Notes: generated by a model from the letters alone, not told the origin. 16,347 nucleotides of DNA from Pseudomonadota bacterium (GCA_900299205.1 OMIW01000043.1:1-16347), one strand, 5' to 3'; shown: positions 1,354 through 16,347, counted from the first letter of the stretch. Numbers and translations: made by a program.

Positions 1354-1437
1354 AGGATAGGGGTTGCTCACTACTCGGTGGTGAGTGATATCGTAGGAGG
1401 CGTGCGTTCAACGGGAGCGCTTTCAGTCTCTTTCCTC

Positions 1438-1442
1438 AGGAG
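1438..1442 (+). promoter_or_regulatory. Ribosome binding site deciding the proline dehydrogenase start
   Basis: AGGAG lies 7 nt before an in-frame GTG at 1450. The longest reading frame begins with GTG at 1378, but a purine-rich stretch upstream of it (1354-1363) is about 15 nt away, which is poor spacing. A stronger AGGAGG at 1395-1400 has no start codon at a suitable distance; the GTG at 1402 is only 1 nt away. Confidence 0.45.
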
Positions 1443-1449
1443 TCGTGTC

Positions 1450-2874
1450 GTGCTGTCTGATCCTCAATCTCATCTTCAACGCCCCGATCCAGCCACTGAA
1501 TATCTCCCCGCAACGATTCCGAGCTTTGAGGATAAGGTTACCGACCTCGGCAAAAAGATACTCGCGGGAATTCGGGTTGAGAGAGCATCTATCCTCTCGA
1601 AGCAATACTGGTCCCAGCGTTTTATGGAGTGGTCAACCAAGACCCCTTCCCTTAAGAGGAACCTCTTTCGGCTCGTTGATGTGCTCCCCTCCCTCGAAAG
1701 CTCAGACGCGATTTCCGATCATATTGCTCAGTATCTCGGCGACGAGGCCTCAACCCTTCCAACGTGGGCAGCGTGGGGAATCCGACCGCCAGGGTCAGCC
1801 ACAAAAGCGATTATGGCAAGCGGGGTAAGGCTTGGCGTTCGACAGATGGCGGCACAGTTTATTGCTGGAGAAACTCCCCGTGCAGCGCTCGGAACCCTCC
1901 GATCAATCCGTCGCTCCGGATTTGCATTCACCGTGGATCTCCTCGGCGAATATTGCGTGAGTGAGCGCGAAGCCGAGAGCTATCTGAAGCGATACATCGA
2001 GTGCTTGACAGTCCTCGGCAGCTCGGTTCCGAAATGGCGCGAGAGTAGATCGCTCATGCAGGACAACCCGGGGGATAGCCGGGCGGCCTGTGTATCAGTT
2101 AAATTGACCGCTCTCTATTCTCAGGTTTCATCACTGAACCAAAAAAGAAGCGTCACTCTTCTCTCTGATCGTCTTGCCCTTCTGGCGAATGAAGCACGAC
2201 AGGCCAACGCTCAGATATATGTCGACGCTGAGGATTCCGCGAACAATGAGATCATCTACAAGGCATTCAAAAGAGTTTTTAGCAGCGCGGAATTCCGGGG
2301 AGACTTTCTCGTCGGCTGCGTCGTTCAAGCCTACTCGCGTCATGCAGCGACATTACTGACGGACCTCCTCTCGTTTTCAAAGGAACGGGGATGCCCTATC
2401 GCGATTCGGCTCGTTAAAGGAGCGTACTGGGATCACGAAACGACAGTTGCCCGGCAGAATGGGTGGTCGTCCCCTCTATTTTCTCACAAATCATCGGCCG
2501 ATGCGAATTTCGAACGACTTAGCCGTTTTCTGATAGATAATCACGAGCGATTATTCCCCGCTTTTGGATCTCACAACGTACGTTCTCTCTCGCATGCCTG
2601 CGTTTACGCTGAGTCTCGGGGCGTTCCGAAAAGCGCCTTTGAACTTCAGATGTTATTCGGCATGGCAGACCCCATCGCGCGTGCATATCGGCACCACGGC
2701 CACCTTGTTCGTCTCTACGTGCCTTTGGGCCCCCTCCTTCCGGGGATGGGATACCTCGTTCGTCGACTCCTTGAAAACACCTCGAATGAATCGTTCTTAA
2801 GGCATACCTTCTTCGATGACCATACCACTGACGCACTTCTTACCGCGCCTCAATTTGATCCGGAGGACCGATGA
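1450..2874 (+). CDS. Proline dehydrogenase (PutA-type PRODH domain, standalone)
   Basis: FAD-dependent oxidation of L-proline to delta-1-pyrroline-5-carboxylate, passing electrons to the quinone pool; first step of proline catabolism. With the GTG at 1450 the protein has 474 residues; from the GTG at 1378 it has 498. The N-terminal ~120 residues are helical like the region before the barrel in PutA. The barrel carries FTVDLLGE, SVKLTALY, YVDAEDSAN, RLVKGAYWD, GSHNVRSL, FELQMLFGM and GYLVRRLLEN. In 474-aa numbering, K218, D259, Y423 and the pair R438/R439 match E. coli PutA K329, D370, Y540 and R555/R556; the K-D spacing of 41 and Y-R spacing of 15 are exact. It lacks PutA's DNA-binding domain and the fused dehydrogenase, which is instead the next gene, overlapping by 4 nt (ATGA). 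Function is firm; the exact start is not. Confidence 0.93.
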   Translation: MLSDPQSHLQRPDPATEYLPATIPSFEDKVTDLGKKILAGIRVERASILSKQYWSQRFMEWSTKTPSLKRNLFRLVDVLPSLESSDAISDHIAQYLGDEASTLPTWAAWGIRPPGSATKAIMASGVRLGVRQMAAQFIAGETPRAALGTLRSIRRSGFAFTVDLLGEYCVSEREAESYLKRYIECLTVLGSSVPKWRESRSLMQDNPGDSRAACVSVKLTALYSQVSSLNQKRSVTLLSDRLALLANEARQANAQIYVDAEDSANNEIIYKAFKRVFSSAEFRGDFLVGCVVQAYSRHAATLLTDLLSFSKERGCPIAIRLVKGAYWDHETTVARQNGWSSPLFSHKSSADANFERLSRFLIDNHERLFPAFGSHNVRSLSHACVYAESRGVPKSAFELQMLFGMADPIARAYRHHGHLVRLYVPLGPLLPGMGYLVRRLLENTSNESFLRHTFFDDHTTDALLTAPQFDPEDR

Positions 2875-4463
2875 ATACTCCCTTTTTCGTCAATGAGCCG
2901 TTTACTGATTTCTCTGTTTCGTCAAATCGCAAACTTCTGCGCGATGCCCTTGAGCGACTCGAATCGACCCGCTCAACTGCGGGACTTGTTGCGTATCCCA
3001 TAATCAATGGCCAACGACGAACAACGCCAAATATCTTTGAGCGTGAGGATCCCTCCACCAAAGATATTCAGCTCGGTACCATTCATTTTGCGTCTCGAGA
3101 CGACGTTGATGAAGCTTTTTCATCTATCGAAGAGGGACGTCTCGGATGGCAGGACACACCAATAAGCGAAAGGGCATCGATCCTGAACCGCGCCGCCTCA
3201 ATAATGCAGGATCGCCGTCACGACCTCAATGCGCTCATCATTCGTGAGGTCGGCAAGCCGTGGAAAGAGGCTGATGCGGACGTCGCTGAGGCGATCGATT
3301 TTTGCCGATACTATGCAGAACGAGCATTTCATTTTGCCTCGCCCATCGCGACGAGCGATATTCCCGGCGAGGAGAATGTGCTTGTCTATCACCCTCGCGG
3401 TACAGCCGTCGTAATTGCCCCATGGAATTTTCCTTTCGCGATTGCATGTGGCATGACGGTCGCTGCTCTTGTCACCGGGAATGGTACAATTCTCAAACCC
3501 GCCGAGCAGTCAAGTCTTGTCGGCTTCGCTCTCGCAGAGCTTCTTCTCGCGGCAGGGGTACCACCGAACGCATTCGCATTCCTCCCCGGTCAGGGAGAAG
3601 ATATCGGCCGAGCATTGGTTGAGGATAAACGGGTTGATCTCATTTGTTTCACCGGCTCGCGAGCGGTGGGTCAGCAGATAATTTCGAGTGCTGCCACCCC
3701 ATACCCTGAGCAAAGAGCGATCAAACGGGTCATCGCGGAGCTGGGAGGAAAAAACGCCATCATTGTTGATGAAGATGCGGATGAGGACGACGCAATCCGA
3801 GGAATACTGGCCTCAGCCTTTGGATTTGCTGGTCAAAAGTGTTCGGCGTGTTCGCGCCTTATTGTTGTGGGCAAGCAGTATTCACGATTTATTGAGCGAC
3901 TCATCGAGGCAGCAGCCGATCTCATCGTCGGTCCCAGCGCGCAACCGGAGACGGTTGTCGGTCCCGTGGTTGACGATGATGCCTATCAAAGGTTGAATCG
4001 GACGATTGAGCACGCACGTCAGGAATGCCGCGTTGTCGTCGCTGCTCGAAACGGATCCGAGGGGTATTTCATCCCACCAACGATCATCGTCGATCCACCC
4101 CTCACCAGTAGCTGGTGGAGCGAGGAGCTGTTTGGCCCAGTTATATGTACCACCTCGGTAGCAACCTTTGACGATGCGTTGAGACTCGCGACAGACTCTC
4201 CGTATGCACTCACTGGCGGCGTTTTCTCCCGTAATCCTCGGAACCTTGAGGCTGCCAAGCGCCATTTCGCGGTCGGCAATCTTTACCTCAACCGAGCAAT
4301 CACTGGAGCCCTCGTTGCACGACAGCCGTTCGGAGGGAGCCGGATGTCGGGAATCGGCTCAAAGGCCGGAGGGCCCGATTATCTTCTTCAGTTTGTCGAA
4401 CCGCGTACTATCACTGAAAATACCTCTCGGCGAGGATTCGTTCCCGAGATTGCTTCATCTTAA
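2871..4463 (+). CDS. pruA: Delta-1-pyrroline-5-carboxylate (L-glutamate gamma-semialdehyde) dehydrogenase
   Basis: A 530-aa NAD(P)-dependent aldehyde dehydrogenase that oxidises glutamate semialdehyde to glutamate, the second step of proline degradation, in the cytoplasm. Visible landmarks are the cofactor-fold motif PWNFPFAIACGM, the general base Glu in AELGGKN (E290), the catalytic Cys in FAGQKCSACS (C324), the EELFGPV segment and the C-terminal RQPFGGSRMSGIGSKAGGPD followed by YLLQFVEP. This ending is characteristic of the P5CDH/RocA/PutA group rather than of general aldehyde dehydrogenases. The start ATG overlaps the TGA of the proline dehydrogenase (ATGA) and has GGAGGA at 2862-2867, so the two proteins are probably translationally coupled. 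Handing P5C directly from one subunit to the other, as in fused PutA, is plausible but inferred. Confidence 0.96.
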   Translation: MNTPFFVNEPFTDFSVSSNRKLLRDALERLESTRSTAGLVAYPIINGQRRTTPNIFEREDPSTKDIQLGTIHFASRDDVDEAFSSIEEGRLGWQDTPISERASILNRAASIMQDRRHDLNALIIREVGKPWKEADADVAEAIDFCRYYAERAFHFASPIATSDIPGEENVLVYHPRGTAVVIAPWNFPFAIACGMTVAALVTGNGTILKPAEQSSLVGFALAELLLAAGVPPNAFAFLPGQGEDIGRALVEDKRVDLICFTGSRAVGQQIISSAATPYPEQRAIKRVIAELGGKNAIIVDEDADEDDAIRGILASAFGFAGQKCSACSRLIVVGKQYSRFIERLIEAAADLIVGPSAQPETVVGPVVDDDAYQRLNRTIEHARQECRVVVAARNGSEGYFIPPTIIVDPPLTSSWWSEELFGPVICTTSVATFDDALRLATDSPYALTGGVFSRNPRNLEAAKRHFAVGNLYLNRAITGALVARQPFGGSRMSGIGSKAGGPDYLLQFVEPRTITENTSRRGFVPEIASS

Positions 4464-8325: not shown

Positions 8326-9702
8326 TCACCTCAACACGAATCTCATCACCAAATCGGGCACAAATCCATTGATTAAGATAAATCCCGTAATTATGAGAAT
8401 ACATACCCGCTCGCGACCAACCAGCGGAAGGGCAACGGCATTTGGGTAAGAGGGACTCCCAAAAAAAGATCGAGCAAAGAGTCTAAAACATGAGTATCCG
8501 TTGAGGGCAAGGGCGAACACGATCACCGGGACGAGTTGTACCTGGTGTGCAAACGCCCCCTGAAAAAGGAGCTCCTCGCTGATAAAACCAATCGTACCGG
8601 GAAAGCCGACGAGAGAGAGCGCGCAAACAAGAAAACACAATCCAAGCTCTGGATAAGTGCTCGCAAGCCCTGATGCCGAGGTTACCCCCGAAAGACCAAA
8701 CCGGCTAGATAGACAGGAGAGAGCAAGCACCAATCCACCTGAGGCAAAAAGAAGGTTTAGGGTATCAAGCTCAACCGGGACGAGACCAGACGAGCCTACC
8801 GCCGAGGTCCCCGCGAGCACCATGAATCCGAGATGCGACATCACCACATATCCTCCAATTCTTTTGAGCCGATGCTCACCAAACAGGAGAAGTGCAACGT
8901 AGATAAGGCCGATAGCGCAGATAACAGTCAAAGAGAGCGATACGCTATGGGGCAGCCGAGGATACAGGGGAAGGAACAATCGCAGAAAAAACGTGACCCC
9001 TATCGTCATCGTGAGGAGCGGAATGAAGATATTCAAACGGGGAGCACCAAGAAAAAGGGGAAGCCAGCTATGAAACGGAAATAACCCAAGGAATGAGAGC
9101 ATCGAAATAACAAGACAAGTTGACGGCAACCAATGGAGCTCGGCCTCGAACGGTCTATCAATAGGAGGAAGTGCTTGACTATCAAAACCCAACGAGGCGA
9201 TAAAGCCGAACAAAGCTATCCAAGCCAGAATTCGATACAAGATATAGGTTGCCATCCGCTCGCTGTTTAACGAATCAAAAATCAGATAAGCCCGCTCCTG
9301 CAACACAAGGCGCGTCACCGAGATCGTTACCATCAGCAGGAATAAAACAAACAGAATCGGATTTGCCACCCGAAACATAACCATACATGCCGAACTCGCA
9401 AAAAAAACCGTCACAAAGTCTGGTCGAGAGATTACCCGATGAGGGACCGCTGCGAAGCCAACGACCGAAATGAGGGCATAGGCAATAGTAAGCAACCGCG
9501 ACACCTGGCCACCATTATCGCCAAGGGAGGGCAGAGCGAGATGCCATGCTATACCGAGGCTAAGGATACTCGCCCCAATACCAATGACCCGAATCCAGGG
9601 TCGAAGGTCAACCCTCCGGTGACAAGAAACCGTAACAACCCAGCCGATTAAGAAAGGAAGAGAGGGAAGCCACTCTCCCGAAGTCATTACGAAGCTACTC
9701 AT
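8326..9702 (-). CDS. Divergent NuoM/antiporter-like membrane subunit of the DAB module
   Basis: A 458-aa, very hydrophobic protein with about 12-14 membrane segments, related to the antiporter-like subunits of complex I (closest by eye to NuoM). Recognisable motifs are FPFHSWLP (208-214), HRLKRIGGYVVMSHLGFM (278-294, with the conserved Lys K280) and LVGFPGTIGFISEELL (364-379, with E376 at the position of NuoM E407). Key charged residues of the entry half-channel are missing: the helix-5 region (NPILFVLFLLMVTIS) has no Glu, NuoM K234 is replaced by F204, and K265 by T233. It may therefore be a structural or partial-channel subunit. ATG 9702 overlaps the dabB stop (ATGA) and has GGAGG 8 nt upstream (9711-9715); a longer start at 9723 would put this site inside the gene. 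It is the last gene of the sulP-dabA-dabB operon. Confidence 0.85.
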   Translation of the reverse strand: MSSFVMTSGEWLPSLPFLIGWVVTVSCHRRVDLRPWIRVIGIGASILSLGIAWHLALPSLGDNGGQVSRLLTIAYALISVVGFAAVPHRVISRPDFVTVFFASSACMVMFRVANPILFVLFLLMVTISVTRLVLQERAYLIFDSLNSERMATYILYRILAWIALFGFIASLGFDSQALPPIDRPFEAELHWLPSTCLVISMLSFLGLFPFHSWLPLFLGAPRLNIFIPLLTMTIGVTFFLRLFLPLYPRLPHSVSLSLTVICAIGLIYVALLLFGEHRLKRIGGYVVMSHLGFMVLAGTSAVGSSGLVPVELDTLNLLFASGGLVLALSCLSSRFGLSGVTSASGLASTYPELGLCFLVCALSLVGFPGTIGFISEELLFQGAFAHQVQLVPVIVFALALNGYSCFRLFARSFFGSPSYPNAVALPLVGRERVCILIITGFILINGFVPDLVMRFVLR

Positions 9703-10970
9703 CTTCGGGTCCTCCCCGCCCATCGACCTATGGTTGCCGTGAACTGTGCCTCACACCGACCGAGATGAGTCGACACCCGCTCGAGGATGCTCACCAGGCT
9801 ATACGGGCCCAGACCATCGCGTATGCTCGTTAGAAATGCCACTCGATACGCCAAGGCAGCCACTCGAGAATCGGCAGCGAACTGCCCACCGTGTCGTGTC
9901 CTCCCCTCGTGAAGAGCTGAATTTGCGCTTAGAATCTGATAAGTTCTCAAAACTGAGTGCCCGATGAAATGAATTACCGCAACCCGATAAAACCCACAGC
10001 CCACTTCAATAAACATCAGGCCGACCTGAGACATCGACGCGAATGCCAGGCTGCCCTTAATGTCTGTCTGAACTGAAGCCTGAATTGAACCTAATCCTGC
10101 TGAAACTATCCCAATCACACAAAGCGTGCTGTTAAACCACACCGGGAATGTGATCCATTCCCCTGATCTTAGAAGAAGGTAGAGCCCGGCATGTACCGAT
10201 AGCCCCCCGTAAAATATGGCACTTGAGGGCGTTGGACCCTCCATTGCTCGGGGGAGCCAAGCGGAGAAAGGAACCTGCGCCGATTTAGGCATTGCGGCAA
10301 GAAGTATGAGAATAGGGATAATTATGCCACGCAAGCCATCCAGCGATGGATTGGGCGAAATACCACCCTCCTGATGCATCGTGAGCATGAGCGCGGCAAG
10401 AAGAAGACTCGTATCACTGAGCCGATATGCCCAAAATGCGCGGAGCGCATTTTCGCGAGTCGCTCCTCTCTCATGAAAAAAAGATATGAGAAGGGCAGAT
10501 GTCAGCCCAATCAGCTCCCAACCAATGTACATCGTGGCCATATTCCGCGCGAGAACAACTATCGACATCCCAAGGGCGAAGAGCATCACGAGGAGGTAAA
10601 AACGCCCGTGTCCACGGTCGCGGTGCAGATAGTCGCGCGAGAAGGCTGCTGCAATACCGCACAGGGAATAGGTGATCACCAAAAAGGGAGCTGCGAGACC
10701 GTCGAAGGAGAGTTGAACCTGAAGGGAGTGATGGGAGAGAGAGCACAGCATCACCGATGCCACCTCAGTTGGCACTCCTCCGAAAATCAGATAACCCGCC
10801 GAAGCAATAAGCACAGAGGTCCATGCTATCAGCAGCCCATATCGAGCAATGTTCGATATAAATTGTTCACGCCGTGTACCGCCACAAAATATCGCCAAGG
10901 CGATAAGGACCAACGCCCCTACGATGGCCCAAACGGCAGCAAGAGCAAAGAAGGGTACCAGAGTGATCAC
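9699..10970 (-). CDS. dabB: DabB, NuoL-like ion-conducting subunit of the DAB inorganic-carbon transporter
   Basis: A 423-aa inner-membrane protein with about 11 hydrophobic segments, homologous to NuoL/MrpA-type subunits and placed directly after dabA, the arrangement that defines DAB systems. DabB is thought to carry cations whose flow powers CO2 hydration by DabA. Visible motifs are YIGWELIGL (helix-5 Glu, E152), AMPKSAQVPFSAWLPRAM (helix-7 Lys, K229), EGPTPSSA, QTDIKGSLAFASMSQVG (K305) and HFIGHSVLRTYQIL, in which NuoL K342 is replaced by R342. After residue ~350 the protein becomes polar and ends, so the last helices of NuoL, including the one with the exit-side Lys, are absent. The start is GTG, with GGAGGA (10978-10983) 7 nt upstream, overlapping the end of dabA. 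It overlaps the downstream NuoM-like gene by 4 nt. Confidence 0.9.
   Translation of the reverse strand: MITLVPFFALAAVWAIVGALVLIALAIFCGGTRREQFISNIARYGLLIAWTSVLIASAGYLIFGGVPTEVASVMLCSLSHHSLQVQLSFDGLAAPFLVITYSLCGIAAAFSRDYLHRDRGHGRFYLLVMLFALGMSIVVLARNMATMYIGWELIGLTSALLISFFHERGATRENALRAFWAYRLSDTSLLLAALMLTMHQEGGISPNPSLDGLRGIIIPILILLAAMPKSAQVPFSAWLPRAMEGPTPSSAIFYGGLSVHAGLYLLLRSGEWITFPVWFNSTLCVIGIVSAGLGSIQASVQTDIKGSLAFASMSQVGLMFIEVGCGFYRVAVIHFIGHSVLRTYQILSANSALHEGRTRHGGQFAADSRVAALAYRVAFLTSIRDGLGPYSLVSILERVSTHLGRCEAQFTATIGRWAGRTRR
9711..9715 (-). promoter_or_regulatory. Ribosome binding site for the NuoM-like gene
   Basis: On the minus strand GGAGG lies 8 nt before the ATG at 9702, inside the last codons of dabB. 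Together with the ATGA stop/start overlap it supports 9702 as the start and translational coupling to dabB. Confidence 0.7.
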
Positions 10971-10973
10971 TGA

Positions 10974-13900
10974 TTAATCCTCCATCGATTGATGCACCGA
11001 CACGAAAGGAAGATTGCCCGATCGGTGCGAGATAAGGGACTCTTCATCATGAACCTCAGGCACCAACGCCTCAAATGCATCATAGGCAGAGGATACTCTT
11101 CCCCGAATGAGGGGGAAAAGCCGATGATCAACCGGATCGTAGAGAGCAACCTTCACCCATTCGCGCTCAATTAATCCTCTTACAACGGGCAATCTCCCGA
11201 GTGCAGCCTCGAATTGCTCAAGGCGTGACTCAATTATGATATTCAGCCGAACCGGCTCATGAATTTCGACCATCTGGGCCGGTAGTCCTGTGCGCAGATC
11301 ACTCGCAAACCCAGTAATCACCCCCACTAAAGAGGCAATATTCATCGGAAGCTTACTTCCAGCCCCATATACTTCATTATCAACAGACGAAAAGAAGTAT
11401 TCGAGATTTATCCCCATACATACCGGCACAACCGCAGCAAGGATTGCCGTAAGAATTGAAGCCTCCGGATCCACAGAGGGTTCGTAAGAAACAAGAAATG
11501 AGCGCCGGTCGAAGAAGACTCCTCGGGAATGATTGCGCGGACCAATTATTGCTATCGCATTCGTAGCGTGCCCATACTCAGGCCTTGGCTCCGCGATGCT
11601 CTGAGTTCTTCCTTCCACATGCGCAAGTGCTGCATCTCTGTCGTCGTGAGGTGCATACGCAAATCGTCGACACCGCTCCCGGGCGTTCCTACGACGGGCC
11701 TCGTCTACAAGGAATCTTAGCTCCTCAAAAAACTGCCCCGAAGCAGCGGGGATTGAGTCAGTGTCAAAGTAACTGATCGAATCGCTGCTCGTATCGTGAT
11801 ACCCGCCCAGAAAGTGGGTAGAATCCGGAATGTCAATACCCGATTCCCTCAGCAATCTACGAACATCTTGACGATTCGCCATGAGAGCAAAGACGCGCGC
11901 ATTCACCCGTCCCGGTCGTCCTCCACATGCACCACAATCGTAGGCTGATCGAAACGGGTTATTGCGTGATGAGGAGCCATGGCCAAACAAAACGACAATC
12001 GGGGCAAAATTATTTACAAGTCCGATACTACGTAAAAGCCCTCCTACTCGCTGTGCCATCTCAACAGGAGAAAAACCCATTAGTCGTTCGGTAGAAAACT
12101 CGTCGGCCTGACACCCCTCCTCTCGCTCATAAACAATATCCGTCACCGTATCAAGCGGCTCACGACCTGCGATGATGCCAGAGATTCTCCCCGACAATCG
12201 GGGAAAAAGAGTCCTCATCAACATCGGGACGAATGCAATCCCTCCGAGGAGAGAGGCGAGCGCACCACCCATTGCTGACCGGGAACCCCGATCAAACATA
12301 CCTCGACTTCGAATCAAGGTTCGACCAAAGGCGAGGCGTCGATCAACAACGGATAAATGTTGATCCTTTGCTCGCTCGACCACTACATGCCGAGGGCGTA
12401 TAACTACTGGGCAAAAGGGAGCCTCTCCCCCTTCAATCGATTGGTATGCTACATCAACACCGAAGAACCCTGCTGTCCCGAAGGTCACTACATGACGGCC
12501 CATCTCCTCGAGATACCGACGGAAGGACTCTTCTCGATCATCGATACAGGTGATGATTTGGAAGTGGGGGATTGAAGCCGGGCGAGCAGAATGCTTCACA
12601 CCAGCGAGGAATGCGTGATAAACCCGTCTTTCGAAGTTACCCTCGAACGCGAGGTGCCAGACCCGCTCCCGGCGGCGCACTTCCCAGGAGGCAAACAAAC
12701 TGAACAGACGCTCTTTTCTCCACGCCGGCCAGGTCACCAGAGTCCTGGCCGTTACTCCCCGAACCTGACACCAACGGAAAAGATGAAATGCCCGATAATA
12801 GAGGCGGTTGACGATATCATCAGAGTCGACGCCATGTGGCCGAATCTGAGCTCGAGGTTCATCACGAAGGACGTCACGAGCTCTTGCTCGGATTATCATA
12901 GAAACAGCGAGAAACTGAATAAGAAGGTCCTCTCGGGATGCGGAACTTGTCGGGAGAACTTCATGCCGAGTTTCAAGAAGATGAAAGAAACCAGCCCAGC
13001 CCTTAAGTTCGAGTAACTCCCTCTGGAGCACCTCCTCCCATCTGTCCTGGGCCAAATCTTCTTCCCGCAAGATATCCTCAAGGGCGTCAAGTGGGTCTCG
13101 GCCTACCAATCGAGTTAGTCGACTTCCGACTCCTCTGACAAACCACGGAACAAGGGGTGAATGGCCTTGAAGCACCTCACTTACTGCGACGACAAAGCCT
13201 TCCTTACGCCGAGGAAGCTGCCACCCTGCAACTCCATCATCAACATAAGCGGCAGCTAATTTCGTAATGAGAGGCATAGTTAGCTCTCGAGCTGCTCGGT
13301 CTACTGTATCGGCATTCATTCCATCGAGCCGAGTCTCAAGACGAACCATCCGTAAGGCATCGGTCATACTCGCGAGCCACAACATCCTCAAAGCGGTGCG
13401 ATTGACGTCCGGAACCGGGCGTTCCAAAAGCTTCGTGAGCTCCTCGACTACTAATTCATCGTCCTTATTCCAATATTCATGTCGCTCAATGTATTGGTCG
13501 AGATACTCAGAACGCTCCGCAAGGGACATCGCTCGGACGATTGCTCGCTCGCGAGCGATTTCGCCCTCCCACCGTGGAAACGCAAGTTCGGCCGGGTGAT
13601 GATCGAGACCCCCATGTTCGAGAAGTGCCCAGAAAACCGATTCTCTAGTCGTATGTTCGGGAGCTGATAGCAGAATGGCTCGGATGTCCTCGATCGCGCA
13701 CTCGTCAGAGGCAACCTCCTCGTTCTGCCTAACCAGACTCGGCTGATCAAGGAGAATGGCTTCGCGAAGGTCGTGATCATTTATCCTTCCACCGATGAAG
13801 GATCTCTGGTAAGAAAACTCCGATTGATAGGCTCTTGCTCCATAGACACTCGCTGCCTTTTCTACTCCCTCAAGAAAATGATACTCCTCAAAGGCATGGA

Positions 13901-14012
13901 GCGTATTGTGATGAACAAAAACATCAAGGGGGCCTTGAGTTGGCAGGTAATGAGATATCCGGTTGATGATATCACGAAGGCCTGACCGATTGCTGCCGGT
14001 CGAAAGGGTCAT
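10974..14012 (-). CDS. dabA: DabA (DUF2309), beta-carbonic-anhydrase-like subunit of the DAB complex
   Basis: A 1012-aa protein of the DUF2309/UPF0753 family. DabA is a peripheral cytoplasmic subunit that binds zinc and is thought to hydrate CO2 to bicarbonate in one direction when coupled to DabB. The N-terminus has the family signature around FVHHNTLHAFEEYHF and GGRINDHDLREAIL. The predicted zinc ligands are all present: C489 and D491 in TCIDDREES, H678 in LFGHGSSS and C693 in SAYDCGACGG. The C-x-D spacing and the 15-residue His-Cys spacing match Halothiobacillus DabA2 (C351, D353, H524, C539). No membrane segments dominate. The protein is large for the family. GGGAG lies 5 nt before the ATG. 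It follows sulP by 72 nt and is followed after 3 nt by dabB, so the three belong to one transcript. Confidence 0.95.
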   Translation of the reverse strand: MTLSTGSNRSGLRDIINRISHYLPTQGPLDVFVHHNTLHAFEEYHFLEGVEKAASVYGARAYQSEFSYQRSFIGGRINDHDLREAILLDQPSLVRQNEEVASDECAIEDIRAILLSAPEHTTRESVFWALLEHGGLDHHPAELAFPRWEGEIARERAIVRAMSLAERSEYLDQYIERHEYWNKDDELVVEELTKLLERPVPDVNRTALRMLWLASMTDALRMVRLETRLDGMNADTVDRAARELTMPLITKLAAAYVDDGVAGWQLPRRKEGFVVAVSEVLQGHSPLVPWFVRGVGSRLTRLVGRDPLDALEDILREEDLAQDRWEEVLQRELLELKGWAGFFHLLETRHEVLPTSSASREDLLIQFLAVSMIIRARARDVLRDEPRAQIRPHGVDSDDIVNRLYYRAFHLFRWCQVRGVTARTLVTWPAWRKERLFSLFASWEVRRRERVWHLAFEGNFERRVYHAFLAGVKHSARPASIPHFQIITCIDDREESFRRYLEEMGRHVVTFGTAGFFGVDVAYQSIEGGEAPFCPVVIRPRHVVVERAKDQHLSVVDRRLAFGRTLIRSRGMFDRGSRSAMGGALASLLGGIAFVPMLMRTLFPRLSGRISGIIAGREPLDTVTDIVYEREEGCQADEFSTERLMGFSPVEMAQRVGGLLRSIGLVNNFAPIVVLFGHGSSSRNNPFRSAYDCGACGGRPGRVNARVFALMANRQDVRRLLRESGIDIPDSTHFLGGYHDTSSDSISYFDTDSIPAASGQFFEELRFLVDEARRRNARERCRRFAYAPHDDRDAALAHVEGRTQSIAEPRPEYGHATNAIAIIGPRNHSRGVFFDRRSFLVSYEPSVDPEASILTAILAAVVPVCMGINLEYFFSSVDNEVYGAGSKLPMNIASLVGVITGFASDLRTGLPAQMVEIHEPVRLNIIIESRLEQFEAALGRLPVVRGLIEREWVKVALYDPVDHRLFPLIRGRVSSAYDAFEALVPEVHDEESLISHRSGNLPFVSVHQSMED

Positions 14013-14084
14013 TGTGTCTCCCTGAACAAAGATACTGGGCTCTGAACGACGCTCTCTGTGCCTTCGATGGTGGCCCCGGAAATA

Positions 14085-15686
14085 TCAGCGGCGAATCGCC
14101 GTCGCAGTCGGATCGGCGCCTGAGCACACATGAGCATCGAGTCCCGATACAAAAATAGTCACTCCCGCAAGCTCTGCCTGTAACCGCCCGAGTTTATCGC
14201 GGAATGTATGTTCCACCAGAGTGCATTGACTAAAATCAATTTGCACTTTGCTGACTTCCGGCCCCGCCTCTTCAATGATTCGCCGAAACGCGACAAAATT
14301 GCTAAAGACTGCGTTACCTTGAAGTCGTATCCGCAACGTATCATCTTCTCTTTCAACCACCTGCGAACCAGAAAGAATATGATGAAGCTTGGTCCCTCGG
14401 AGAACGACATAGCCGACCGCACAACCGAGGCCGGCCGCGACGCCAATCAACAGGTCCTCGGTGACGGTCAAAACGCACGTTATCAAGAAAAAAACAAACT
14501 GTTCCCGTCCGGTATTCCACGCATGAATGAACTCGCGAGGTGCCGCGAGCCGAAAGCCGACATAAACCAAGACCCCCGCCAGCGCACTGAGGGGCACTCG
14601 GGCCAGGATCGGGGAGAAAACTCCCAAGTAGGCGAGCAACAACAATCCGTGCGTTAGGTTTGCCCGCGAGGTCGACGCCCCCGCATCCACGTTCGCTTTG
14701 CTTCGCACAATTTCAGAAATCATCGGGAGACCTCCAAGGAGACCCGATATGACGTTACCAATTCCTAGCGCTATCAAGTCCCTATCGGGATTCGCTCGAC
14801 GACGCTCAGGGTCCATCCCATTTACGGCACTCACGGTCAAGAGAGACTCAATACTACCAACGATCGCGAAAAAGGCTATATATTTCAGAGAGTGAAAAGA
14901 GATGAGTCGTGACCAATCAGGAAAAAAAACCGACTCAGAGAGAGAATGAGGTAATTTCACCAAGAAATCAGGACCCAAAGGATACTCAGCACCGTGAAAT
15001 ACATAGGTATGGAGCTGCGTGATGTCAAAGAGGGCGTCGAAACAGATTGCGAGGACCAGCACGATCAGAACGGCAGGCACCCGCTTTAAAAAACCGAGCG
15101 GGTAGCGCGCACAAATAATCATCACTGCAAGACTGGTGACCCCTATCAAGGTGATTACCGGGTTCAAAGCTTTGAGGCTGTTTCCGATCTCAGAAATAAG
15201 CGCCATCGGAGTCTTTCCACTCGGAGTCACGCCGAGCAGAACATGGATCTGCTTTCCCATGACGATAATACCGATCGCCGCGAGCATGCCATGGATGACA
15301 GATCCAGGCATCATCTCAGCGAGAACACCACACCGAAATACCCCCAGCAGAATCTGGATGACTCCCGCAACGACGATTGCAGCCGCCGTACGGTACACTC
15401 CCGACATCGGATCCCCGGGGTCGGCGAGCTCTGTTACCGCCCCGAGAACGATCACGATCAATCCCGCCGCTGGTCCTTTAATGGTGAGGCGTGCGCCGCC
15501 TGCCAGAGAGGTAACTACCCCCCCAACGATTGCCGCAATCAGCCCCGAAGCCGCTGGATAGCCACTTGCCACGGCGATTCCAAGCGAGAGGGGAAGTGCT
15601 ATGAGGGAAACTAAAAAACCGGCGGCGAGGTCACTCGTCCAGCCGCTTTTGGAGGAGGTAGCCGCAGAGGGCGCGATCTGTTTCAT
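14085..15686 (-). CDS. SulP family inorganic anion (possible bicarbonate) transporter with STAS domain
   Basis: A 533-aa inner-membrane transporter of the SLC26/SulP family. Residues ~20-430 form the transport domain, with LAAGFLVSLIALPLSLGIA near the start, TIKGPAAGLIVIVLGAV as the substrate-site helix, and the signature SAVNGMDPERRRANPDRDL followed by GLLGGLPMISEIVRSKANV. Residues ~445-525 form a cytoplasmic STAS domain; its loop reads VEHTFRDKL instead of the canonical DSSG, as in the SulP subgroup with a DHT-type motif. The family moves sulfate, bicarbonate, dicarboxylates or other anions, and sequence alone does not tell which. Its position as first gene of an operon with dabA and dabB suggests bicarbonate, as an inference. 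GGAG lies 5 nt before the ATG. The gene is complete. Confidence 0.92.
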   Translation of the reverse strand: MKQIAPSAATSSKSGWTSDLAAGFLVSLIALPLSLGIAVASGYPAASGLIAAIVGGVVTSLAGGARLTIKGPAAGLIVIVLGAVTELADPGDPMSGVYRTAAAIVVAGVIQILLGVFRCGVLAEMMPGSVIHGMLAAIGIIVMGKQIHVLLGVTPSGKTPMALISEIGNSLKALNPVITLIGVTSLAVMIICARYPLGFLKRVPAVLIVLVLAICFDALFDITQLHTYVFHGAEYPLGPDFLVKLPHSLSESVFFPDWSRLISFHSLKYIAFFAIVGSIESLLTVSAVNGMDPERRRANPDRDLIALGIGNVISGLLGGLPMISEIVRSKANVDAGASTSRANLTHGLLLLAYLGVFSPILARVPLSALAGVLVYVGFRLAAPREFIHAWNTGREQFVFFLITCVLTVTEDLLIGVAAGLGCAVGYVVLRGTKLHHILSGSQVVEREDDTLRIRLQGNAVFSNFVAFRRIIEEAGPEVSKVQIDFSQCTLVEHTFRDKLGRLQAELAGVTIFVSGLDAHVCSGADPTATAIRR

Positions 15687-15844
15687 GAAGTCTCCAAAGG
15701 ACCTACCCGCAGATTACGTTCGGGGGCCATCAGATCGGAGGGTACGCCCCTGTAATCGGTCTTGCAAGCTCACAAAAGGTAAAAGCCTTGACACCTTATA
15801 AAAAAACCTACCCTCATTCGTACCCCTGGCGATATCATCAGGTT
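15687..15844. promoter_or_regulatory. Divergent intergenic region, presumed promoters of the sulP-dab operon and the rightward gene
   Basis: This 158-nt region is the only non-coding space upstream of the four-gene minus-strand operon. On the minus strand TTGCAA (15762-15767) and TACCCT (15739-15744) are 17 nt apart and give a weak sigma-70-like match about 50 nt before the sulP ATG. On the plus strand a perfect TTGACA (15788-15793) is followed by an AT-rich run (TTATAAAAAAA) but by no good -10 at the normal distance. No riboswitch, LysR-type T-N11-A box or terminator could be defended by eye. Confidence 0.35.
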
Positions 15845-16347
15845 ATGTCGAACGCTGATCACCCGCTTAAAGAGGACGCCGAGGAACATGATTCCGTCTC
15901 TCACCATCTGCCCCCAGCGAAAGGCCACCCCCCTCCGCCAAAGAACTCAAAAATTGCCTTCTCAATTCTGACCCGCGAGGTCCATGCGACTCTCCCCCTC
16001 GGAGTTTACGCCCTGAGAATTGTTCCCTTCGAATGTCAGCTCGAAGGTGGGACATTTCGGGCGTTACACATCAAGATAGACCTTCCACCAGAAAAAGAGG
16101 GATCGTTCGACAAATGGTGGAGCGAGTTTGAAACGCGCTTCGATGTGCGTATCCATCCGACGAAAGAGTGGGCGAACAGAGGAATCGACAATCTTTTGCG
16201 GGGGGTTTCTGGAAATCAGGAGATACTAACCGATAGCGACATTCCAGCTCTCAACCGACGACTCCAGCATTTCGATCAGGTGCCGGGGGATCGGCGGGCT
16301 GATCCCCTACTAAAGACCATCCCTCTGGATAAGGGTAAAGACCTCAC
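15845..16347 (+). CDS. 5' part of an unrecognised gene, divergent from the sulP-dab operon
   Basis: An ATG at 15845 opens a frame of 167 codons that runs off the end of the window without a stop. No other in-frame start lies upstream. The N-terminal ~38 residues are polar, His/Pro-rich and low in complexity (DHPLKEDAEEHDS, then a short proline run), with no signal peptide or membrane segment. From about residue 39 (IAFSILTREVHATLPLGVYA) a folded domain begins, with strands rich in charged residues and a tryptophan pair (FDKWWSEFE). I do not recognise the family. The ribosome binding site is weak (AGG 2 nt before the ATG). A shared promoter region makes it a candidate partner or regulator of the carbon-uptake operon, but nothing in the sequence proves this. 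Confidence 0.65.
   Translation, partial: MSNADHPLKEDAEEHDSVSHHLPPAKGHPPPPKNSKIAFSILTREVHATLPLGVYALRIVPFECQLEGGTFRALHIKIDLPPEKEGSFDKWWSEFETRFDVRIHPTKEWANRGIDNLLRGVSGNQEILTDSDIPALNRRLQHFDQVPGDRRADPLLKTIPLDKGKDL

Follow-up and report, generated by a model that had tools for sequence, protein, structure and literature searches.

In the only DAB complex with a solved structure, a glutamate on the membrane finger of DabA and helices TM12-15 of DabB link the flow of protons to CO2 hydration, and the locus described here raises the question of what a third, NuoM-like subunit would contribute to such a machine. We analysed a 16,347-nucleotide stretch of DNA from a Pseudomonadota bacterium (GCA_900299205.1, OMIW01000043.1), hereafter the window, and found on its minus strand a four-gene operon for a SulP transporter, DabA, a short NuoL-like DabB and a NuoM-like third subunit, for which we coin the names dabM (gene) and DabM (protein). 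The gene order is the one given by a first-pass annotation of the same DNA, and each gene has a Pfam match. The SulP-family anion transporter gene (14085..15686; 533 aa; PF00916, 204 bits) lies 72 nt upstream of dabA, as had been noted, and is followed by dabA itself (10974..14012; 1012 aa), whose product matches PF10070 along the entire profile (1-747 of 747) with 692 bits against a cut-off of 25 and is the predicted zinc beta-CA-like CO2-hydrating subunit. Next come dabB (9699..10970; 423 aa, with a GTG start preceded by GGAGG; PF00361, 135 bits) and dabM (8326..9702; 458 aa with the ATG at 9702 as start; PF00361, 59 bits).

The annotation had also spoken of overlaps among these genes. For dabB and dabM this holds, with 4 nt (ATGA) shared if the ATG at 9702, which is preceded by GGGGAGGA, is the start, but dabA and dabB are separated by a gap of 3 nt; fixed-ratio synthesis, for its part, can only be inferred from such gene overlap. 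The first ATG of the dabM frame is at 9723 and would lengthen the overlap with dabB to 25 nt. DabM residue numbers used below follow this 465-aa reading, and seven is to be subtracted for the 9702 start (E384 becomes E377).

Flanking genes on the plus strand encode a bacterial sugar transferase, a proline dehydrogenase, an aldehyde dehydrogenase, an FMN oxidoreductase, a hybrid histidine kinase and RlmH. The proline dehydrogenase has a PutA N-terminal domain and its gene overlaps that of the separate aldehyde dehydrogenase by 4 nt in a split-PutA-like arrangement (1378-4463). At the other end, an ORF on the plus strand (15788-16345) that encodes 186 aa or more and has no Pfam match diverges from the operon and is cut by the window end.

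Distribution and precedents of the gene cluster

A search of 84,980 species genomes gave 80 loci, which were picked by similarity to the window DabA and so sample this clade rather than all DABs. Most belong to Planctomycetota, with others in Verrucomicrobiota, Myxococcota, Acidobacteriota and deltaproteobacteria-like MAGs. Where a dabB gene has room downstream, dabM almost always lies directly downstream of it or is fused to it (60 of 62), often with the same 4-nt overlap, and in the DabA tree the three-subunit DabAs fall into a single long-branched clade (SH-aLRT 100). A conserved lineage of DABs with three subunits, one of them NuoM-like, is thus borne out as proposed. Two loci that appeared to be without DabM (L047 and L109) were rejected as exceptions, as they contain overlong DabM-matching ORFs missed by the distance rule, and so were two with DabA and no DabB (L079 and L103), whose DabB-DabM genes are on other contigs of their genomes. 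Across the 45 genomes searched in the window genome's own phylum, 11 have DabA and nine have DabM, always with DabA (9/9); the DabA-only genomes are G025, in which the locus ends inside dabB, and G029, which is described below.

The full SulP-dabA-dabB-dabM order is not limited to one genome, as it recurs in four related genomes, with three more cut by contig ends; given this recurrence and the presence of the dabA-dabB-dabM core across several phyla, we rejected chance gene neighbours as an explanation. SulP was found in the cluster at 21 of the 38 loci that have space for it upstream and downstream alike, 12 times downstream and 9 times upstream, which makes dabA-dabB-dabM the core and SulP an associate instead of the integral part that the first-pass annotation had made of it. 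The closest solved relative of the window SulP by sequence is 6ki1 (E 1.7e-25), which we take to be BicA. The protein belongs to the PF00916 superfamily and scores below the cut-off of the NCBIfam BicA equivalog (131.9 of 880 bits); it is likely an accessory importer of bicarbonate or another anion.

Other arrangements were seen as well. A Verrucomicrobiaceae contig (L080, 7902-18763) has a pair of three-subunit DAB operons that are inverted relative to each other and flank SulP. DAB genes are scattered in Schlesneria genomes (L079, L103 and L167), with a lone DabA, DabB-DabM elsewhere and one DabM adjoining DabA. In four relatives, dabM is followed by a Cu-oxidase_4 (PF02578) gene (L032 2894-3649, L033 12510-13289, L034 8621-9409 and L038 10514-11269) that is absent from this place in the window.

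Although the arrangement had been put forward as undescribed, COGNAT reported in 2017 that ybcC (dabA) upstream of a nuoL homologue often has COG0659 (SulP) and COG1008 (NuoM) nearby; this 'clade C' has the same gene set and order as the window operon and is the same thing (PMC5700660). The text of that paper covers the neighbourhood only and is silent on the shortened DabB, the finger lacking its Glu and the partial fusion described below. We found no experiment on, or characterisation of, a NuoM-like DAB subunit in the open-access literature, a search outside which most subscription papers and all supplements lie. What looks new is the set of linked differences from two-subunit DABs.

Nor do all described DABs have two subunits, as the first-pass annotation had assumed. 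DAB1 of Halothiobacillus neapolitanus and a Nitrobacter plasmid locus likewise have three proteins, but the third is small or hypothetical and not antiporter-like. The Nitrobacter DabA is similar in its length of about 1000 aa, but it keeps the finger Glu, the Nitrobacter DabB has a tail of 226 aa with four TM helices, and the locus adjoins RuBisCO and a carboxysome gene. On plasmid 1 of Nitrobacter hamburgensis (L151, 1-12574) we observed that form I RuBisCO and CsoS2 adjoin two dabA-PII pairs of the DAB1 type. Annotated two-subunit control loci have the order dabB-dabA, against dabA-dabB here. A CO2-hydrating protein on NuoL-like and NuoM-like subunits is also found in the cyanobacterial NDH-1MS complex (NdhF3, NdhD3, CupA), a vectorial carbonic anhydrase. 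The window operon differs from it in having no quinone/ferredoxin module and DabA in place of CupA, and the window DabB does not reach the cut-off of the NdhF3 profile (98.4 of 588.7 bits).

Residue patterns in DabA, DabB and DabM

The reference for these comparisons is DAB2 of H. neapolitanus (DabA2-DabB2, PDB 9rd0), in which cryo-EM placed a zinc site at Cys351/His524/Cys539 with an Asp353-Arg355 dyad and showed a finger-like DabA2 hairpin entering DabB2 (PMC13144422). Glu444 of this finger replaces NuoL Lys399/Asp400 and is essential, with E444A and E444Q both abolishing activity, and DabB2 TM12-13 together with the finger are the probable periplasmic half-channel (PMC13144422). The window system shares with DAB2 the DabA family, the Cys2His zinc site, the Asp-Arg dyad and a NuoL-like entry path. 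Together with the full-length PF10070 match and a NuoL-like DabB adjoining DabA, the zinc site and dyad place it in the DAB/DAC superfamily; DabB TM12-15 and the DabA finger Glu, which mark the two-subunit DAB2 type, are missing.

In the window DabA the zinc ligands (C489, H678 and C693) and the dyad (D491-R493) are kept, as they are in all 77 three-subunit DabAs and all 12 control DabAs, the controls being two-subunit loci of ten plasmids, Methylocystis, the DAB1-like Nitrobacter locus and a reverse-strand system on contig L102. The DabA profile matches 9rd0_A with an E-value of 9.4e-118, and an AlphaFold2 model (pTM 0.81) forms the finger from two long helices, 550-578 and 580-602, and is of low confidence at its tip. 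The intact site, the profile match and the finger helices make CO2 hydration the likely chemistry of this subunit. A Foldseek search with the same model gave no significant match even though the profile finds 9rd0_A, and its silence is uninformative. The membrane finger hairpin, at about 550-606, has no equivalent of Glu444. This glutamate is absent from all 77 three-subunit DabAs and present in 12 of 12 controls, and in 75 of the 77 there is no acid within about ten columns of its site; what the clade conserves in the finger is Arg, Gly and Pro.

DabB differs from its two-subunit counterparts at its end. The window protein matches 9rd0_B (E 4.9e-25), its PF00361 match covers profile positions 1-226 of 294 only, and beyond the His motif of TM11 the three-subunit DabBs have tails of 81-158 aa with no TM helix in 65 of 69 and one in the other four, whereas tails of 178-226 aa with three to four TM helices are found in all 13 two-subunit or DAB1-type controls (TM counts are from hydropathy, plus AlphaFold2 for one homologue). 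DabB2, by comparison, has 551 aa and includes TM12-15. A sequencing error or frameshift in the window was rejected as the cause of the short DabB, short tails being the rule in the 69 relatives. Residues E152, R183, D186, K229, H260, K305, H334 and R342 are kept in 69 of 69, and the protein carries the NuoL entry path (TM4-11) and ends before TM12-15. Two of these positions separate the groups: E152, the equivalent of NuoL Glu144, is Glu in 69/69 and acidic in 0/13 controls (Ile151 in DabB2), and position 260 is His in every three-subunit DabB (69/69) but Asn in every control (13/13). In complex I, NuoL Glu144 has been described as one half of an ion pair close to where subunits meet (PMC13144422). 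With DabB lacking TM12-15 and DabA lacking the finger Glu, the third subunit seems to be a necessary part, not an optional extra.

DabM belongs to the Mrp/Nuo antiporter family and scores below the cut-off for a curated NuoM (95.6 of 263.8 bits). Its central charged residues are largely lost: among 63 DabMs the TM7 Lys of NuoM is never present (Arg in 55, and Phe in the window), and the TM11 His region is not kept. The position of E384, in TM12, is acidic in all 63 (48 Glu, 15 Asp). When aligned with the NuoL and NuoM of its own genome, E384 falls one residue past their TM12 Lys and Glu; if the aligned TM12 Lys is Lys399, E384 would stand at the place of NuoL Asp400. We rejected the view that the DabM acid is simply the retained NuoM Glu, as it aligns one residue later, beside the TM12 Lys of NuoL.

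Natural variants and the proposed proton path

In G029, of the same class as the window genome, the finger Glu is missing from DabA and no gene scores above the DabM threshold. The DabB of this genome has 676 aa, of which the last 266 match TM10-14 of the DabM family profile (hhalign E 2.6e-7, probability 93%), with positions 210-291 of Pfam PF00361 matching there as well and a Glu kept at the E384 position ('NFFVWEFL' against 'GFISEELL'). Since the G029 DabA is inside the three-subunit clade (SH-aLRT 90 in the DabA tree), the state of G029, which is one MAG with a very long branch, looks like the result of a secondary reduction in which DabM lost all but its C-terminal half. The locus (L153, 1948-6601) has an AMP-binding (acyl-CoA synthetase-like) gene upstream and no adjoining SulP. 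In Sorangium cellulosum So0157-2 (L066, 11041-14358), DabB and DabM are joined in one 1105-aa frame by a low-complexity Arg-Ala-Arg-Arg repeat of roughly 100 residues, and given this linker the fusion could be accidental; in its relative So0008-312 (L106), a stop codon terminates DabB and a frame of its own encodes DabM. The DabM-homologous half of the Sorangium fusion aligns with NuoM along its entire length and has the complete fold of that protein (Z 49, rmsd 2.2 over 483 residues). An AlphaFold2 model of the natural DabB-DabM fusion, from a shallow alignment, reached a pTM of 0.55 with no readable interface. The third variant, a Verrucomicrobia-like contig in an Akkermansia record (L102, 232-10861), has a two-subunit DAB and a divergent SulP-dabA pair of the three-subunit type, the finger Glu being present in the DabA of the former and absent from that of the latter. 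As the three-subunit DabAs are one clade on a long branch, the linked differences (finger Glu, DabB tail, E152/H260 and the DabM acid and Lys) may be one evolutionary event rather than repeated covariation, and G029 and L102 are the sole checks of them with some independence.

Our preferred reading, which we consider somewhat probable, is that the operon specifies a DAB/DAC complex of three subunits (DabA-DabB-DabM) with the C-terminal half of DabM as proton exit and an accessory SulP importer; its composition we infer from the genes and its proton path from the residues. The residue patterns strongly suggest that DabM would supply the exit half of the path. The more specific version, in which a single proton path is divided between an entry half in DabB and an exit half in DabM with the TM12 acid replacing the finger Glu, seems to us about evenly balanced. 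Under this scheme, the proton-motive force would push protons through the membrane part, entering by way of DabB E152, K229, H260, K305, H334, H338 and R342. DabM would pack on DabB as NuoM does on NuoL, its N-terminal half serving as a scaffold with the NuoM fold, and its C-terminal bundle with E384 would be the exit half, standing in for DabA Glu444 and DabB TM12-15. Proton passage would then activate the buried zinc site of DabA for one-way conversion of CO2 to bicarbonate, as proposed for DAB2, and the product would go to anabolic carboxylases in an organism without RuBisCO.

Each of NuoM and NuoL holds a whole channel in complex I, and the full NuoM fold of the Sorangium DabM half would suit a DabM that is a second complete ion channel, with two or more ions moved per CO2. 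This is what the COGNAT authors guessed from the number of membrane subunits, more of which would move more ions (PMC5700660). We find it distinctly unlikely, as the TM7 Lys and TM11 His region are not kept, DabB alone without TM12-15 makes two full channels improbable, and G029 appears to retain the C-terminal half of DabM only. The largely lost central charges would fit a structural or regulatory DabM that fills the space of DabB TM12-15, anchors the DabA finger and carries no protons, and so would the acid-free finger with its conserved Arg, Gly and Pro; this too is rather unlikely, however, given an acid at the TM12 place in 63/63 DabMs and its persistence at the aligned position of the G029 DabB.

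Membership in the Mrp/Nuo family could also mean that DabM acts on its own as a cation/proton antiporter and has no more than the operon in common with the DAB proteins. We regard this as highly improbable in view of its near-obligate adjacency to dabB, the natural DabB-DabM fusion, the joint loss, within one clade, of DabB TM12-15 and the finger Glu, and the occurrence of DabM only with DabA among the genomes searched in the phylum.

Bicarbonate supply and coupling of CO2 hydration

The absence of RuBisCO from the window extends to the host genome, as no RuBisCO large chain was detected in it or in eight operon-bearing relatives, and biotin carboxylases are present in all nine. The suggestion that the module supplies bicarbonate to anabolic carboxylases in a heterotroph fits these findings. 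A beta-CA was not found in the window genome (G000, about 90% complete) and is present in all eight relatives; alpha-CA (PF00194) was not found in any of the nine genomes, the search covering the beta and alpha classes. We know of no NuoM-like subunit in MpsAB of Staphylococcus aureus. Its proteins are DabA/DabB homologues that provide inorganic carbon for a heterotroph and can replace carbonic anhydrase, but are proposed to act by Na+/HCO3- symport (PMC6689103). By analogy with MpsAB, the main bicarbonate source of S. aureus (PMC8567241), the operon may be the main bicarbonate source of the window organism.

A large lineage of planctomycetes, myxobacteria, verrucomicrobia and acidobacteria has neither the finger Glu nor DabB TM12-15, and nearly always has DabM. 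If DabM replaces both, then the indispensable step in coupling would be an acid at the place of NuoL Lys399/Asp400, which can be moved between proteins. If the path is indeed split, the proton-motive force would be coupled to CO2 hydration by a second architecture, and the complex I antiporter family would include a natural case of division into half-channels. Such a system would offer a test bed for how proton paths are split among complex I antiporter-like subunits, and another part for the engineering of bicarbonate supply.
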